From an uncultured Marinicella sp. (lineage in GTDB: Bacteria; Pseudomonadota; Gammaproteobacteria; Xanthomonadales; Marinicellaceae), in contig CANNAM010000004.1 of NCBI GenBank assembly GCA_947502595.1, forward strand, positions 62,001-126,000: a stretch of DNA of 64,000 nt, given 5' to 3'. Shown here piece by piece: positions 19,843 to 28,857 of the stretch. Under the pieces are notes generated by a model. That model searched no databases. It had not been told where the DNA came from and worked only from the letters and a program-made list of their open reading frames with translations. Within the stretch, counting starts at the first letter, position 1, and each line of letters starts with the position of its first letter. The translations under genes were made by a program, and so were the position numbers.

Positions 19843-20271
19843 ATGACTAAAAATCAAACTTATAAAATGACAGTTTGCCCGATGACCTATGTATTGGAAA
19901 TATTGGGTGATAAGTGGACCTTCTTGATCATCCGTGACATGCTTTTTAAAGGTTGTTGTCAATACAAACAATTCATCGAAAGTGATGAAGGTGTTGCGAC
20001 CAATATTTTGGCTGATCGTTTAAAAAAGTTAACACAACATGGCTTAATCACACAATGCAAAGACCCAGAGAATGGTCGTCAAAAGTTGTACCATTTAACT
20101 GAGAAAGGACTGGATTTGATTCCTTCAATTTTACATTTGGTGAAATGGAGCGGTCAATATGACCCCAATACAGTGTTGTCAAATGCGATCATGCAATTCT
20201 TGGAAGGGCGATTTGATGAAGCGGTTCAAATTGTCAGAAAAGAGTATCTGAATAATTGTCATGTACACTGA
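19843..20271 (+). CDS. HxlR family transcriptional regulator
   Basis: MTVCPMTYVLEILGDKWTFLIIRDMLFKGCCQYKQFIESDEGVATNILADRLKKLTQHGLI; N-terminal Cys conserved in the family. Confidence 0.9.
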   Translation: MTKNQTYKMTVCPMTYVLEILGDKWTFLIIRDMLFKGCCQYKQFIESDEGVATNILADRLKKLTQHGLITQCKDPENGRQKLYHLTEKGLDLIPSILHLVKWSGQYDPNTVLSNAIMQFLEGRFDEAVQIVRKEYLNNCHVH

Positions 20272-20431
20272 ATCAAGCTCAAAAATAAATTGAATATTCG
20301 TTATTATATCGTTATTATTCAGTGATTTAGCTGTTAAAACTCAGCGTAATTTAATGATCTGTGACGTGGGTCTATAATTCTGCTTAAAGCAAGCTGTAAT
20401 TTTGGCAGTCCTTTAATCTAGGAATTAAAAA

Positions 20432-20713
20432 ATGAGAAAAATGTTAATTATTATTTTTGCAATGTCATCCAGTGCTGGTTTTGCAATGGATGCTGATCAA
20501 ATGCAAAAAGCCGCCTTTAAAGCCTGCGAAACGCAGCTTGAAAATATACCTGAAGGCTTGCGTGAACAAAGCAAAAAAAGTTGTGAATGCAACGTTAAAA
20601 ACACAGATTATGCAGCTGTGTTGGCCGCACATCAGGCAGGTGACACAGAAAAAGTACAACAAGATGCTTTAAAAGTTGCTGAAAAGTGTGCCAAAGAAAC
20701 TACTTTTGAATAA
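20432..20713 (+). CDS. Small secreted hypothetical protein
   Basis: 93 aa with signal peptide MRKMLIIIFAMSSSAGFAMD, four Cys in the mature part. Confidence 0.6.
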   Translation: MRKMLIIIFAMSSSAGFAMDADQMQKAAFKACETQLENIPEGLREQSKKSCECNVKNTDYAAVLAAHQAGDTEKVQQDALKVAEKCAKETTFE

Positions 20714-21186
20714 GTCTATATTGGATTAGCAATACAGCCAGTCAATCAGTTCAATTGGTTGTCTGGTTGTATCTGGCTTTAATGCACAAAATCAATTAAT
20801 ACATGTTTTGTCTTTCAGTTTTGTTGATTCATCAGGGTAATAATTATAACCCTAAAAGATTGGACTGAATTCAGTAGATGCTCGGCTAAAAGTCTGTTCC
20901 AAATTAGGTGTTAATAATGAATTTTTACTTTCTAAAAACCACTGTAAAGCCAATTAAAATTTTTCACTAATAAATCAATTAAAATTATTGCAATATTTAC
21001 ACCGATAAAAAACCAGCGCAACTGGACAGCATAAAAATGTTTATTTTTACAGGTGTTTTGGTGTGTATGCAAGTCATACAGACGGTAATGAAAGCATGAA
21101 TTTTAAGGTGTAATTAATTAGGTAGAACTAGAATAGATTTTGCAAAAACTATGGTTATATTTTTAAAATAAAACCGCATTAAAGGG

Positions 21187-21215
21187 TTGACTTTAGAATT
21201 GGCTTGCTTGAATAT
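21187..21215 (+). promoter_or_regulatory. Possible promoter for the ilv leader transcript
   Basis: TTGACT at 21187, 17-nt spacer, weak -10 GAATAT at 21210; about 70 nt upstream of the leader ORF. Confidence 0.25.
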
Positions 21216-21286: not shown

Positions 21287-21364
21287 ATGAATTTATCTGC
21301 CAACATCATCCTCATCAACATTATTGTAGTCATTATCGTGATTATTGGTCCACGTGTGTGGTGA
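21287..21364 (+). CDS. ilvL: ilv operon leader peptide (attenuation)
   Basis: Direct translation: MNLSANIILINIIVVIIVIIGPRVW* (25 aa; 9 Ile, 4 Val, 2 Leu); absent from the ORF track because it is short; followed by a terminator and ilvE. Confidence 0.88.
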   Translation: MNLSANIILINIIVVIIVIIGPRVW

Positions 21365-21388
21365 GTTCGGCAAACAATTGGTAATCCC

Positions 21389-21424
21389 AAAAAAGCCCTT
21401 CTCACCGAGAAGGGCTTTTTTTTT
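21389..21424 (+). terminator. Rho-independent attenuator terminator upstream of ilvE
   Basis: AGCCCTTCTC (21394-21403) / loop ACC / GAGAAGGGCT (21407-21416), followed by a T-run to 21424. Confidence 0.92.
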
Positions 21425-21474: not shown

Positions 21475-22371
21475 ATGTATTACGATAAACAAACAGTGAA
21501 TTACTTAAATGGCAAGTGGCAACTGGCTACCGACACCCAAGCTGGTTTATACCAACAAACTTTCCATTATGGAAATGGTGTTTTCGAAGGCATCAGAGCT
21601 TATGCGACTGATCAAGGTACCCATATTCTCAGAGCACAAGCGCACTATGAAAGGCTGCTGTATTCAGCAAAAACCATGCACATTGATATCCAGCAAAGTG
21701 TTGAAGAGCTGGTTGCAATCAGCCATAAGTTGTTAGCTAAAAATGGTCTTCAAGACGCTTATATCCGCCCTTTTGTTTACACCGATGAAATGCTGGGTTT
21801 ACAAGCGAATAGTCAAGCCAATGTGTTTATATGTGCATGGGATTGGGGGCAGTATTTTGATGCCGGTGCACTGAAATTAAAAGTTTCACGTTATTGTAGA
21901 CCCGACCCTCGGTCATGTCATGTGGATGCCAAGGTGTCTGGCCATTATGTCAATTCAATCTTAGCGATGAAGGAAGCCCACTTGGCTGGTTATGATGATG
22001 CCTTGTTGTTGGATCAAAATGGCTTTGTTGCAGAAGCCAGTGGTGCCAATTTCTTTATACAGAAAGAGGGCGCCTTATATACCCCGCCCAAAGGTCATAT
22101 ATTACCAGGCATTACCCGCAGTATAGTTATGGAACTGTGTGAAGCAAATGGCATCAAGGTACATGAAAAACTGTTCAAACCAGAGGATATTTATGCAGCT
22201 GAAGGCGCCTTTTTAACTGGGACAGCCGTTGAAGTGAAAGCCGTTGGAACTTTAGGTGAGCATACGTTTAAGCGCCCATGGGATGAAACCTTTGGGGCTT
22301 TGTTACAAAAACAGTTCAGTCAAGTGGCCAGAAAACAAAAAGTTAAATACCAACAATTTAAGGCAGCATAA
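21475..22371 (+). CDS. ilvE: Branched-chain amino acid aminotransferase
   Basis: [53 protein letters not shown]. Confidence 0.93.
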
Positions 22372-24158
22372 TGAGTGCTTTGAACAAATATTCAAAGGCA
22401 GTCACTCAAGATGACTCACAACCGGCAGCCAAAGCAATGTTGCATGCCATCGGCCTGAGCCAAGCTGAATTGAACCAGCCATTTGTTGGTGTGGCATCAA
22501 CTGGTTATGAGGGCAACCCTTGCAATATGCACCTCAATGACATGGCCAAACAAATCAAAGATGCCGTATGTGAAAAATCGCTGAATGGTCTGATTTTTAA
22601 CACCATTGGAATTTCAGATGGCATATCAATGGGCACCTCAGGTATGCATTATTCTTTACCCTCACGTGATTTAATCGCCGATTCCATTGAAACTGTGGTG
22701 GCTGGTATGCATTACGATGCGGTGGTTACGGTGGTTGGCTGTGATAAAAATATGCCTGGAGCAATGATGGCCATGTTGCGTCTGAATCGACCGGCTTTAT
22801 TGGTCTATGGTGGCACCATTGCACCTGGCTGTCACGCGGGTAAAAAGCTTGATGTGGTCTCGGCTTTTGAGGCTTGGGGTGAAAAACTCACGGGTAAAAT
22901 ACAAGCTTCGGAGTACCAACAAATCATCCAAAAAGCCTGTCCTGGTGCTGGTGCCTGTGGTGGCATGTACACCGCCAATACCATGGCATCAGCCATTGAG
23001 GCGATGGGCATGAGTTTGCCCTATTCATCATCAAATCCTGCCATCAGTTCAGCAAAAATAAATGAATCGCAACAAGTGGCGGAGACCATTGAAAACTTAC
23101 TACTTTATGATATAAAGCCCAAAGACATCGTTACCAAAGCGGCTCTGAGCAACGCGTTTAAACTGGTTACTGTACTGGGCGGCTCAACCAATGCGGTGTT
23201 ACATTTTTTGGCCATTGCAGATGCAGCGGGAATCGATATGGGGCTGGATGATTTCCAAGCAATCAGTGATGCCACGCCCTTGTTAGCCGACTTAAAACCC
23301 AGTGGTCGATACTTGATGCAAGACTTGCATGAAGTAGGCGGTATCCCTGCAGTATTAAAATACATGCTTCAACTTGGTTGGTTAGACGGTTCATGTATGA
23401 CCGTAACAGGCAAAACACTGGCTGAAAATTTAGCTGCAGTGAATGACTTGGATCATCAACAACAGGTCATTCATAAGGTCGAAGCACCCATCAAGTCATC
23501 AGGCCACATTCAAATCCTTAAAGGTAACTTAGCTCCACAAGGTGCGGTGGCCAAAATAACGGGCAAAGAAGGTGCGGTCTTTCATGGCAAAGCCATCACT
23601 TTTGATGGTGAGGCTGCAGCTAATCAAGGCATAGCCAGCGGTGTTGTTAAACCTGGAAATGTGGTGGTGATTCGGTATGTTGGTCCCAAGGGTGGGCCGG
23701 GCATGCCAGAAATGCTCAAACCTACCGCTGCCATCATTGGTGCCGGTTTAGGTGATGCTGTGGCACTGCTTACGGACGGCAGATTTTCCGGTGGAACCCA
23801 CGGTTTTGTAGTGGGTCACATCACCCCAGAAGCGCAGGTAGGTGGTACTTTGGCATTGGTTAAAGACGGCGATGACATATCCATCGACGCCAATATCAAC
23901 AGTTTAACGCTGCATGTCAGCGAAGCTGAACTGGCAGTCAGGAAACAGCAGTGGGTGGCACCTGAAATGAAATTCAAGCGCGGTGTTTTGGCCAAGTATG
24001 CCAGGGCGGTGACATCGGCTTCTTTGGGGTGTTTGACTGATGCGGATGAAGCAGGTATGCAGGCAGTACAAGCAAACCAGCAACCCCACCTTGATGCCAT
24101 TAAAACCCACTCAAAAGATAAAAACCATGGATTAAAGTCACCTGGAGTTAGCGCATGA
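22371..24158 (+). CDS. ilvD: Dihydroxy-acid dehydratase
   Basis: [71 protein letters not shown]. Confidence 0.95.
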
Positions 24159-25939
24159 AATCAGCCTCAATCACATCTGATCTGACAACAATAAACGACC
24201 CGTTGGCCGCTGAAAAAGCACCCACTGTTACAGGTGCTGAGTCAATTATATTGAGCCTATTGGCAGAAGGGGTGACGCAGATTTTTGGTTACCCAGGTGG
24301 TGCCATCATGCCCACTTATGATGCTTTGATGGATTTTGAGGAGCAAATTCAACACATATTGGTTCGGCATGAACAAGGTGCGGTACATGCCGCTCAAGGC
24401 TATGCCCGGGCCTCTGGAAAAGTCGGTGTGTGTTTGGCTACCTCAGGCCCTGGTGCCACCAATTTAATCACTGGAATTGCTGATGCTTACTTAGACTCAA
24501 CACCGCTGGTTTGTATCACTGGCCAAGTTTTTGCGCACTTGTTGGGCACCGATGCTTTTCAGGAAATCGATATTTTAGATATATCGATCCCGGTGACCAA
24601 ATGGAATATCAAAGTCACCCAAGCCAGTCAAATACCAGCGGCTGTGGCCAAAGCATTTTATATTGCCAAAAGCGGACGACCAGGTCCGGTGCTGATAGAC
24701 ATCACTAAAAACGCCCAAACCGAAGGGCTGACTTTTGCTTACCAGCCTTGTTTACAATTGTTCAGCTATGAACCCTATCCACAACCCAATGAATTGGCAT
24801 TGGTCAGGGCGGCCAGTTTAATCAATGCCGCCAAAAAACCCCTGGTGTTATTTGGTCAAGGGGTGATTCTGGGTGCTGCGGAGCAAGCATTTTTAGCCTT
24901 TGCTGAACGTTGTGGTGCGCCACTGGCAGCCACTATTTTAGGTTTGTCAGCCATCCCAACTGACCACCCTCAGTATGTCGGAATGCTGGGTATGCACGGT
25001 AATTATGCCCCGAATACACTGACCAACGAGTGTGATGTATTGATAGCAGTTGGGATGCGGTTTGATGATCGGGTTACCAGTAATTTAGCTTATTATGCCA
25101 AACAAGCACAAATCATTCACTTGGAAATTGACCCTTCAGAGATCAACAAAAATGTGGCTGTAGATGTGGCAGTGTTGGGCGACGTTAAACAAACCCTCCC
25201 GGCACTGACAAAACTTCTCGATGTCAATCAACACCCACAATGGTTTGCAGAATTTCATCGGCTGCAAGCCACAGAGCAAAATAAGATTATTAACTATGAC
25301 CTCAAGCCCCAAAGTGATGCCATCAACATGGCTGAAGTGATTGAGTGTTTAAACCAACAAGATGAAAACTGTATTGTCGTTACTGACGTTGGGCAGCACC
25401 AGATGGTGGCTTGTCGCTATGCCAAGTTCAAGCAAAGTCGAAGTCTGATTACATCCGGTGGTTTAGGAACCATGGGCTTTTGTTTACCTGCTGCCATCGG
25501 CGCGAAGTTTGCTCGGCCTGACAGGCAGGTGGTTGGCATTGTAGGCGATGGAGGTGTGCAAATGACCATCCAAGAACTGGGTGTATTGATGCAACATCAA
25601 CTGCCAGTCAAAATGATTATTTTAAACAATCAATTTTTAGGCATGGTGCGTCAATGGCAAGAACTGTACTTCGATAAGCGTTATGCTTCTACGGCCATGT
25701 CCAATCCTGATTTTGGGCGCATTGCTGATGGTTATGCGATCAGCAATGCCAGAGTCAGCAACAGAGAACAACTGGCTGCTGCAGTTCAAACCATGTTATC
25801 CCACTCTGGTGCTTATATTTTAGAAGTTATGGTGGCGCAACAAGACAACGTCTTTCCAATCATCACCCCCGGTGCCTCAGTGGCTGAAATGTGCTTGGGT
25901 ACCGCTAACGACAACAGTGAGGAGGTGCAACATGAATAA
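24155..25939 (+). CDS. ilvB: Acetolactate synthase, large (catalytic) subunit
   Basis: [76 protein letters not shown]. Paralogue letter (B/G/I) not determinable. Confidence 0.93.
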
Positions 25940-26507
25940 TCACTATACTTTTGCTATTTATTCAAATGATCAAGCCGGGATATTGAACCGCATAACGGCG
26001 GTATTTTCCAGAGCAGGTCTGAATATTGAAGCTTTATCAGTGTGTGAATCGGCCCAGTCAGGTTTATTCAGACACAATGTTCAAGTCAGCTGTGATCAGC
26101 AAACTGGATTCAGGGTAAGTAAACAATTGGAGCGACAAATTGAAGTCGTTAAAGCTGATTTTTTTCATCAAGATGAGGTAATTCAGCAAGAAGTAGCGCT
26201 GTATAAAATGGCTTCAAAATCCATGTTAGAGCAGGCCCTAACTGAGCAGATTATGCACCGCCATCATGCCCGCGTACTGAGCATGAACAGTGAATTTACG
26301 GTGCTTGAAAAAATCGGTAATCGCTCGGAATGTCAGGCCTTACTTGATGATTTATCGGTTATTGGGGTGCTTGAATTTGTGCGCTCAGGACCAGTCAGTA
26401 TCAGTAGGCCCATGTCAGCACAAGAAATACCGACAGATGGTACGGTAAGTCAACAACTCAATCCTGGTAGAGCTGTAAGTGCTGTGCCAGCAGAAACTTC
26501 ACTTTAA
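25932..26507 (+). CDS. ilvN: Acetolactate synthase, small (regulatory) subunit
   Basis: ACT domain [37 protein letters not shown]; overlaps the large-subunit stop; ATG at 25932. Confidence 0.88.
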   Translation: MNNHYTFAIYSNDQAGILNRITAVFSRAGLNIEALSVCESAQSGLFRHNVQVSCDQQTGFRVSKQLERQIEVVKADFFHQDEVIQQEVALYKMASKSMLEQALTEQIMHRHHARVLSMNSEFTVLEKIGNRSECQALLDDLSVIGVLEFVRSGPVSISRPMSAQEIPTDGTVSQQLNPGRAVSAVPAETSL

Positions 26508-26530: not shown

Positions 26531-27577
26531 ATGGCACAGTTAAATTTTGGCGGAACAACAGAAGAAGTGGTCACTCGAGAAGAGTACCCTTTGGCAAAAG
26601 CCCAAGACTTTTTAAGCAACAAAACCATTGCAGTGCTTGGCTACGGGGTGCAAGGACCTGGTCAAGCATTGAACCTGAAAGACAATGGTTTCAATGTTAT
26701 TGTCGGTCAACGCAAAGGTGGGGGGTCTTGGAATAAAGCCATTGAGGATGGCTGGGTAGAAGGTGAAACTTTATTTGAATTGGCAGCAGCCACCCAGCAA
26801 GCAGATGTGGTGATGTACTTATTGTCAGATGCTGGTCAAATTTCAGCCTGGCCGGAAGTTAAGGCCAATCTGAATGCTGGTGATACCTTGTATTTTTCGC
26901 ATGGTTTTGCCGTTACATACCATCAGCAAACAGGCATTGTGCCGCCCAAAGATGTCGATGTGGTGCTGGTCGCTCCAAAAGGTTCTGGCCGGTCATTGCG
27001 GACGTTTTTTAAACAAGGCAAAGGCTTGAACTCCAGTTATGCAATCTTTCAAGATGTCACCGGTCATGCCAAACAAACAGCGACTGCTCTGGGTATCGGC
27101 GTGGGTTCAGGGTATTTGTTTGAAACTGACTTCAAAAAAGAGGTTTATTCTGACTTAACCGGTGAGCGGGGCATTTTAATGGGTGCCATTGCTGGTTTAT
27201 TTGAAGCACAGTATAATGTATTACGTAAACATGGCCACTCGCCATCAGAAGCTTTCAATGAAACAGTTGAAGAATTGACCCAAAGTTTGATGCCTTTGGT
27301 CGCTGATAATGGCATGGACTGGATGTTTGCCAATACTTCAACCACCGCACAACGTGGTGCATTGGACTGGCGGCATAAATTCCGCGAAGCCAACACACCA
27401 ATTTTTGAAGATTTGTATGCCAGTGTGGCCAGCGGTGAAGAGGCCCGTGTGGTGATTGAGGCCAACCAAAAGCCTGATTACCGAGAAAAATTGAATCAAG
27501 AACTTGAGGCGCTGCGAAATTCTGAGTTGTGGCAAACCGGTCAACAAGTCAGAAAACTCAGACCAGAAAATGTTTGA
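26531..27577 (+). CDS. ilvC: Ketol-acid reductoisomerase
   Basis: VLGYGVQGPGQALNLKDNGFNVIVGQRKGGGSWNKAIEDGW, VAPKGSGRSLRTFF, SDLTGERGILMGAI, GHSPSEAFNETVEELTQSL. Confidence 0.95.
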   Translation: MAQLNFGGTTEEVVTREEYPLAKAQDFLSNKTIAVLGYGVQGPGQALNLKDNGFNVIVGQRKGGGSWNKAIEDGWVEGETLFELAAATQQADVVMYLLSDAGQISAWPEVKANLNAGDTLYFSHGFAVTYHQQTGIVPPKDVDVVLVAPKGSGRSLRTFFKQGKGLNSSYAIFQDVTGHAKQTATALGIGVGSGYLFETDFKKEVYSDLTGERGILMGAIAGLFEAQYNVLRKHGHSPSEAFNETVEELTQSLMPLVADNGMDWMFANTSTTAQRGALDWRHKFREANTPIFEDLYASVASGEEARVVIEANQKPDYREKLNQELEALRNSELWQTGQQVRKLRPENV

Positions 27578-27582
27578 ACAAT

Positions 27583-28857
27583 ATGATTGATCTCACCCCA
27601 GCTCTCAAAGAAACAGTGGCTCATATCGATGTTGATGCGGCCATCAAACGACTCAAAGGTGTGGTTGAACCCACGCCTTTGTTGTCTAATTTGACGTACA
27701 GCAATGAATTTGGTGCTGAAGTTTTATTGAAGCGTGAGGACTTACAGACCGTGCGCTCCTATAAAATCCGTGGTGCATACAATAAAATTTCAGCCTTACT
27801 GGAACAACAGCCCAAGCTCTCACATGTGGTTTGCGCCAGTGCGGGCAACCACGCCCAGGGAGTGGCTTACACATGTCGAAAACTGGGGGTAAAAGCCGCT
27901 GTGTATATGCCAATTACAACGCCACAACAAAAAGTTGAACAGGTTAAAATGTTTGGTGGTGATCAAGTTGAGTTGGTGCTGATTGGTGACACTTTTGATG
28001 AAGCACAACAACAAGCTGTTATTTATAGTGAACAACAGCAATACCCGTTTATTCACCCTTTCGATGACCCTGACATCATTGCTGGCCAAGCAACAATAGG
28101 TGTCGAAATACTGCAACAATGTCAGCAGTCAATAGATCATATCTTTGTACCAATAGGCGGTGGTGGTTTGGCAGCTGGCATGTTAACGGTGATCAAAAAA
28201 TTATCACCACACACACAAGTCATTGGTGTGGAGCCTGAAGGTGCTGCATCGATGACTGCTGCGATACAAGCTGGTCACAACACCAAGCTGGATCACATGA
28301 GTCGTTTTGTTGATGGCGCTGCTGTCCAGCAGGTGGGTAGTCACACTTTCAAAATCTGTCAATCATTGTTGGATGATGTCATCACTGTGCCAGATGGATT
28401 GACTTGTCAGGCCATATTAAGCCTGTATAACAAAGATGCCATTGTGGTGGAACCAGCTGGGGCATTATCCATAGCTGGTTTGCATCAATACCAAGATCGA
28501 ATCAAGGGCAAACGGGTGGTGTGTGTACTCAGTGGCAGCAACAATGACATCACCCGAATCGAAGAAATTCGTGAACGTGCGCTGTTGTACAATGGTTTGA
28601 AACATTATTTCTTGGTGCGTTTTCCACAGCGAGCCGGTGCTTTAAAAGAGTTTGTTGCGGAGGTGTTGGGTCCAACTGATGACATCACATATTTTCAGTA
28701 CCATAAGAAACACAACCGTGAGCATGGTCCGGCTGTGGTGGGCATTGAATTGAAATTAGCTGCGGATTTCGATTCTTTGTTGCAGCGCATGAAAGCCGGT
28801 GGTTTCTTTAATGATTACCTCAATAACCAACCAGAATTATTTTCGATGTTGATGTGA
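27583..28857 (+). CDS. ilvA: Threonine dehydratase, biosynthetic
   Basis: LLKREDLQTVRSYKIRGAYNKI, SAGNHAQGVAYTCRKLGVKA, PIGGGGLAAGML, VLSGSNND; C-terminal ACT-like region. ATG at 27583. Confidence 0.92.
   Translation: MIDLTPALKETVAHIDVDAAIKRLKGVVEPTPLLSNLTYSNEFGAEVLLKREDLQTVRSYKIRGAYNKISALLEQQPKLSHVVCASAGNHAQGVAYTCRKLGVKAAVYMPITTPQQKVEQVKMFGGDQVELVLIGDTFDEAQQQAVIYSEQQQYPFIHPFDDPDIIAGQATIGVEILQQCQQSIDHIFVPIGGGGLAAGMLTVIKKLSPHTQVIGVEPEGAASMTAAIQAGHNTKLDHMSRFVDGAAVQQVGSHTFKICQSLLDDVITVPDGLTCQAILSLYNKDAIVVEPAGALSIAGLHQYQDRIKGKRVVCVLSGSNNDITRIEEIRERALLYNGLKHYFLVRFPQRAGALKEFVAEVLGPTDDITYFQYHKKHNREHGPAVVGIELKLAADFDSLLQRMKAGGFFNDYLNNQPELFSMLM

Follow-up and report, generated by a model that had tools for sequence, protein, structure and literature searches.

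A predicted ribosome-mediated attenuator before the ilvEDBNCA operon of Marinicella, with probable relatives in Bacteroidota

How is the ilv operon of Marinicella controlled, and where did its control region come from? That ilv operons can be controlled by ribosome-mediated attenuation is textbook knowledge. In the window (the whole 64,000 nt stretch of Marinicella DNA analysed here) six genes, ilvE-D-B-N-C-A, specify the full Ile/Val pathway (Table 1), and the original prediction placed a 25-codon leader ORF, a terminator and a set of alternative pairings directly before ilvE. The region 21287-21424 is very probably a ribosome-mediated transcription attenuator controlling ilvEDBNCA, a reading best able to explain both the conservation of the unit in relatives and the outcome of stalled-ribosome simulations.

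Table 1. Features of the ilv leader region and operon (positions in the window)
Feature	Position	Strand	Basis or remark
Predicted sigma-70-type promoter, TTGACT, 17-nt spacer, GAATAT	21187..21215	+	comparison; weak -10
Leader peptide ORF, ATG..TGA, 25 codons, MNLSANIILINIIVVIIVIIGPRVW	21287..21364	+	start, frame and Ile/Val/Leu run kept in 21/21 orthologous loci
Possible region 1, TGCCAAC, codons 4-6	21298..21304	+	pairs with 21365-21372 without ribosome; variable
Ile/Val/Leu control codons	21305..21346	+	stalls here give antiterminator probability of ~0.7
Region 2, antiterminator 5' arm, GGTGAGTTCGGC, holds TGA stop	21360..21371	+	GGTGAG invariant in 21/21
Small hairpin TTGG/CCAA within antiterminator loop	21378..21390	+	found in 18/21 leaders
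Intrinsic terminator (3:4) with U tract	21389..21424	+	about -20.6 kcal/mol; folding and comparison
Region 3, GCCCTTCTCACC, common to antiterminator and terminator	21395..21406	+	pairing
ilvE, branched-chain aminotransferase	21475..22371	+	NF005146, TIGR01122 above cut-off
ilvD, dihydroxy-acid dehydratase	22371..24158	+	TIGR00110 above cut-off
ilvB/ilvG, acetolactate synthase large subunit	24155..25939	+	TIGR00118 above cut-off
ilvN/ilvM, acetolactate synthase small subunit	25926..26507	+	TIGR00119 above cut-off
ilvC, ketol-acid reductoisomerase	26531..27577	+	TIGR00465 above cut-off
ilvA, threonine ammonia-lyase	27583..28857	+	NF006390, TIGR02079 above cut-off

The leader ORF ends 24 nt before the terminator and is rich in codons for the products of the operon itself. 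The two strands of the window contain 819 ATG-initiated ORFs of 15-40 codons, of which this one is the densest in Ile, Leu and Val (13 in 15 codons). No Shine-Dalgarno sequence is evident before its ATG. The peptide matches none of the Pfam and NCBIfam leader-peptide models, the E. coli-type ilvL family included, and Rfam gives nothing at gathering score over the leader region: Phe_leader, on the opposite strand, comes closest with 32.6 bits (cut-off 55), and Thr_leader is the best match on the leader strand with 29.3 (cut-off 55). The Bacteroid-trp covariance model (RF01692) has no match in the window. Between a regulator-like gene (19843-20271) and the ilv promoter lies about 0.9 kb of AT-rich DNA (20272-21186) that contains no ORF of at least 100 aa.

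Searching 61 genomes for IlvE orthologues (E below 1e-100) gave 20 relatives, which by their named records are Marinicella and allied MAGs, of two genera. Every one of the 20 relatives retaining this IlvE, all of the family Marinicellaceae, carries the leader unit, with a peptide of 17-26 aa in which Ile, Val and Leu predominate, and behind it a terminator of the GCCCTTCTC..AGAAGGG type and a U tract. The stop codon falls within an invariant GGTGAG at all 21 orthologous loci, where leader length varies in whole codons. Between leaders of equal length the third codon positions differ most (144 differences, against 89 and 72 at the other positions), an excess expected of coding sequence, and the Marinicellaceae genomes gain one small protein gene, so far unannotated. 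The 22-mer GGTGAGTTCGGCAAACAATTGG, which begins at 21360 and covers region 2 and the linker, occurs unchanged in 10 Marinicella genomes, at no other site than the ilv leader; across the 31 genomes searched it has no other match at up to two mismatches, and the remaining three matches have three mismatches. At one locus (L114, genome G019) ilvE is gone from the operon and the attenuator stands intact directly before ilvD. The comparison of ilvE upstream regions proposed with the original prediction thus bears out both its ORF and its terminator.

Four otherwise complete Marinicella genomes (G001, G002, G010 and G011) have neither an IlvD match nor a close IlvE, and may therefore depend on branched-chain amino acids from outside; in another (G007) only a close IlvE is lacking.

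The folding that had likewise been proposed shows the leader to be more stable than all 200 shuffled versions, at -45 kcal/mol for 181 nt against a shuffle mean of -30.7 (z = -3.8). A pattern-based promoter and terminator scan detected neither the ilv promoter nor the hairpin at 21389-21424, yet the latter is by folding and comparison an intrinsic terminator beyond doubt, situated between the leader ORF and the first gene. It scores 86.9 bits (E 5.5e-17) with the covariance model R1, which includes the window's own sequence. The pairings 2:3 (antiterminator) and 3:4 (terminator) had been described correctly, as judged by folding, by the 20 relatives and by simulation: GGTGAG (21360-21365), overlapping the stop codon, pairs with CTCACC (21401-21406), and GGC (21369-21371) with GCC (21395-21397), with a 3x3 internal loop between the two helices. 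These same pairs form the 2:3 helix throughout the window's genus. In the second genus the helix is TGAGAA/TTCTCA, i.e., (U)GAGAA/UUCUC(A), together with GGC/GCC, and in L019 it is GGTGAGAA/TTCTCACC, so that pairing is maintained by differing bases across the loci. Pairs were counted species by species because the MAFFT alignments A2 and A3 shift the second-genus terminator arms by one column.

Ile-rich short ORFs arise readily in an AT-rich region such as this one, and the hairpin is strong by itself, so the leader might be chance coding and the hairpin a constitutive terminator or the 3' end of a small RNA. That account is highly improbable given the top rank of the ORF in Ile/Leu/Val density, and given that its frame, stop position and Ile/Val/Leu run are kept in 21/21 loci and recur in Bacteroidota; moreover, a constitutive terminator would have no need of a conserved alternative pairing.

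The predicted 1:2 pairing stands only in part. CCAC (21350-21353) can indeed pair with GTGG (21358-21361), but the helix has only 4 bp, overlaps region 2 by two bases, is weak and is not consistently conserved, the second genus keeping it only in part. When folded without a ribosome, several Marinicella species sequester region 2 by codons 4-6, through pairing of TGCCAAC (21298-21304) with GTTcGGCA (21365-21372); this alternative, a possible region 1, also varies between species. The antiterminator probability without a ribosome ranges from 0.00 to 0.80 across species, which speaks against a region 1 protector shared by all of them, and no consistent region 1 was found across the 21 leaders.

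The switch itself was simulated by parking a ribosome codon by codon on each of the 21 leaders and calculating the chance of 2:3 pairing just after synthesis of region 3, a calculation that presumes folding at equilibrium and a ribosome covering a constant 17 nt, counted from the first base of the P codon. In all 21, in silico, antiterminator pairing has a probability of mostly 0.6-0.8 as long as the A site lies in the Ile/Val/Leu run, drops off within a few codons past it and falls to zero at the stop codon; an antiterminator that excludes the terminator is thus available, in silico, only on stalling at the control codons. Leaders of 25 codons and those of 17-20 codons in the second genus behave alike, and the position of the switch tracks the end of the run regardless of leader length. 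Stalls at the first codons of two second-genus leaders (L016, L018) give a low antiterminator probability. The proposed logic of antitermination by stalling at Ile and Val codons therefore survives, in silico, both the simulation and the 20-relative comparison.

The linker ACAATTGG and the TTGG/CCAA hairpin are conserved more than the peptide explains, as might be the case in a riboswitch or protein-bound leader that senses directly and carries the peptide incidentally. Such direct sensing has very little to recommend it when the hairpin is missing in three relatives, no Rfam riboswitch reaches cut-off, and the switch position shifts with the end of the Ile/Val/Leu run at any leader length. 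The small hairpin, lying in the antiterminator loop, would itself explain the conserved linker.

Attenuation of ilvEDBNCA would proceed as follows. Transcription would begin upstream, at the predicted promoter, and a ribosome would translate the leader behind the polymerase; promoter use, leader translation and the response to starvation are the steps that we infer. With ample charged Ile, Val and Leu tRNA, the ribosome would reach the stop codon within region 2 and cover that region, leaving region 3 to pair with region 4 and ending transcription at 21424. Where these tRNAs are scarce, the ribosome would halt in the Ile/Val/Leu run and the free region 2 could pair with region 3 (GGTGAG..GGC with GCC..CTCACC, the TTGG/CCAA hairpin in the loop), so that the terminator is blocked and the operon transcribed.

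The nearest IlvE sequences outside Marinicellaceae are those of Bacteroidota (45-54% identity); matches from other families of the same order reach about 25-42%. The six-gene order ilvEDBNCA also occurs in many Bacteroidota, and the identity of IlvC to Bacteroidota is often 69-77%, compared with 33-42% to the same order. In some Bacteroidota (L050, L103, L071, L074, L076 and others) a distant IlvC type, of 25-29% identity, occupies the place of ilvC and the other genes are retained. In a tree of IlvD all 15 Marinicellaceae fall into a single clade (99), within a larger group (98) that takes in eight Flavobacteriales, and the IlvC tree again places Marinicellaceae among Bacteroidota and not with their own order. 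For IlvD a tree constrained to keep Bacteroidota in one clade passes the AU test (p = 0.149); neither the exact branching nor the direction of transfer is therefore proven. The direction is judged from breadth: operons of this type occur widely among Bacteroidota, and one family of Gammaproteobacteria was found to have them.

Of the 50 Bacteroidota ilvE loci, 43 have both a leader ORF and a terminator, most with equal switch behaviour, which points to attenuators as a general feature of ilv operons in many members of the phylum. Tandem attenuators, each with its own Ile/Val leader and terminator, lie upstream of ilvE at L103, L104 and L056 (found by script) and at four further Bacteroidota loci seen by eye (L051, L052, L067, L079); such an arrangement is known for Salmonella mgtCBR (PMC3641672). 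Run against 577 kb of DNA from Bacteroidota, model R1, built solely from the Marinicellaceae stop-to-terminator sequences, has its six best matches all immediately before ilvE. With a limit of E <= 0.01, 20 loci (22 hits) are found before ilvE, with four matches on the opposite strand of those hairpins and five elsewhere. A weaker R1 match in a genome from another family of the order (G104) was considered as a relative and rejected, being a native, unlike attenuator before ilvD. This locus (L123) has a native-looking gammaproteobacterial attenuator, with an ORF containing ..EALLLLLVVVLISISSSAGSG and a CCCGCACTT terminator.

Did the attenuators of the two groups arise separately, with the enzymes alone being transferred? 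This would bear on their shared origin and not on the mechanism. Leader peptides have been argued to arise repeatedly from random sequence in Firmicutes, in a study that left transfer versus repeated invention undecided (PMC2965389), and terminators of like composition look alike, R1 having a few weak matches elsewhere. Independent origin is nonetheless unlikely, since both groups have the unit in front of the same gene, at the same position, since the stop codon in TGAG, the GCCCTTCTC terminator arm and the spacing agree between Marinicellaceae and three Bacteroidota loci (L053, L100, L104), and since the native leader of the same order (L123) looks different. The leader unit is most likely homologous to the Bacteroidota ilv leaders and was exchanged together with the operon.

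The promoters differ. TTGAC(A/T)-N17-nAnnnT is found at the corresponding place in 20/21 Marinicellaceae leaders, that is, in all with enough upstream sequence, whereas several Bacteroidota loci have TAnnTTTG boxes shortly before the leader; none of the Bacteroidota leaders checked is preceded by a TTGACA-type promoter, and the reverse holds in Marinicellaceae. The promoter was thus seemingly exchanged and the attenuator kept. Operon and attenuator probably crossed phyla and acquired the sigma-70-like promoter afterwards. The fuller scenario is also reasonably likely, in which a complete attenuator and six-gene ilv operon crossed between Bacteroidota and Gammaproteobacteria, stayed working through the radiation of the family and had a Bacteroidota-type promoter swapped for a sigma-70-like one. 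If true, ribosome-mediated attenuation is a portable form of regulation that requires no host-specific factor. Marinicellaceae offer a clear case, open to test, in which a cis-acting amino-acid sensor has apparently moved between phyla with its operon.

A comparative prediction of branched-chain amino-acid attenuators by Vitreschak et al. in 2004 reportedly included Bacteroidetes/Chlorobi. A literature search for work on Bacteroidota ilv attenuators, or on attenuator transfer, found none; the attenuation mechanism is known, and the ilv family presented here and its cross-phylum spread were not found described. In Flavobacterium psychrophilum, leader-peptide attenuation has been proposed upstream of amino-acid operons from a transcriptome map (PMC9723704), i.e., by the same mechanism, but the main text of that study mentions neither an ilv leader nor any case outside Bacteroidota. 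The Bacteroid-trp leader (RF01692), present at one Bacteroidota locus (L053), is like the Marinicella unit a predicted leader-peptide attenuator, of Bacteroidota amino-acid operons, but concerns tryptophan and not Ile/Val. With these precedents, those of E. coli ilv (ilvGMEDA and ilvBN, named in PMC1183508) and that of mgtCBR, the kind of attenuator is already known. The original comparison with E. coli ilvGMEDA holds for the mechanism and not for kinship: the enterobacterial system (ilvL) shares with Marinicella an Ile/Val/Leu leader, mutually exclusive antiterminator and terminator, and control of an ilv operon, but the Marinicella genes have the order ilvEDBNCA, their IlvE, IlvD and IlvC are of Bacteroidota type, and their leader, also of Bacteroidota type, matches no known leader family and has no consistent 1:2 protector.
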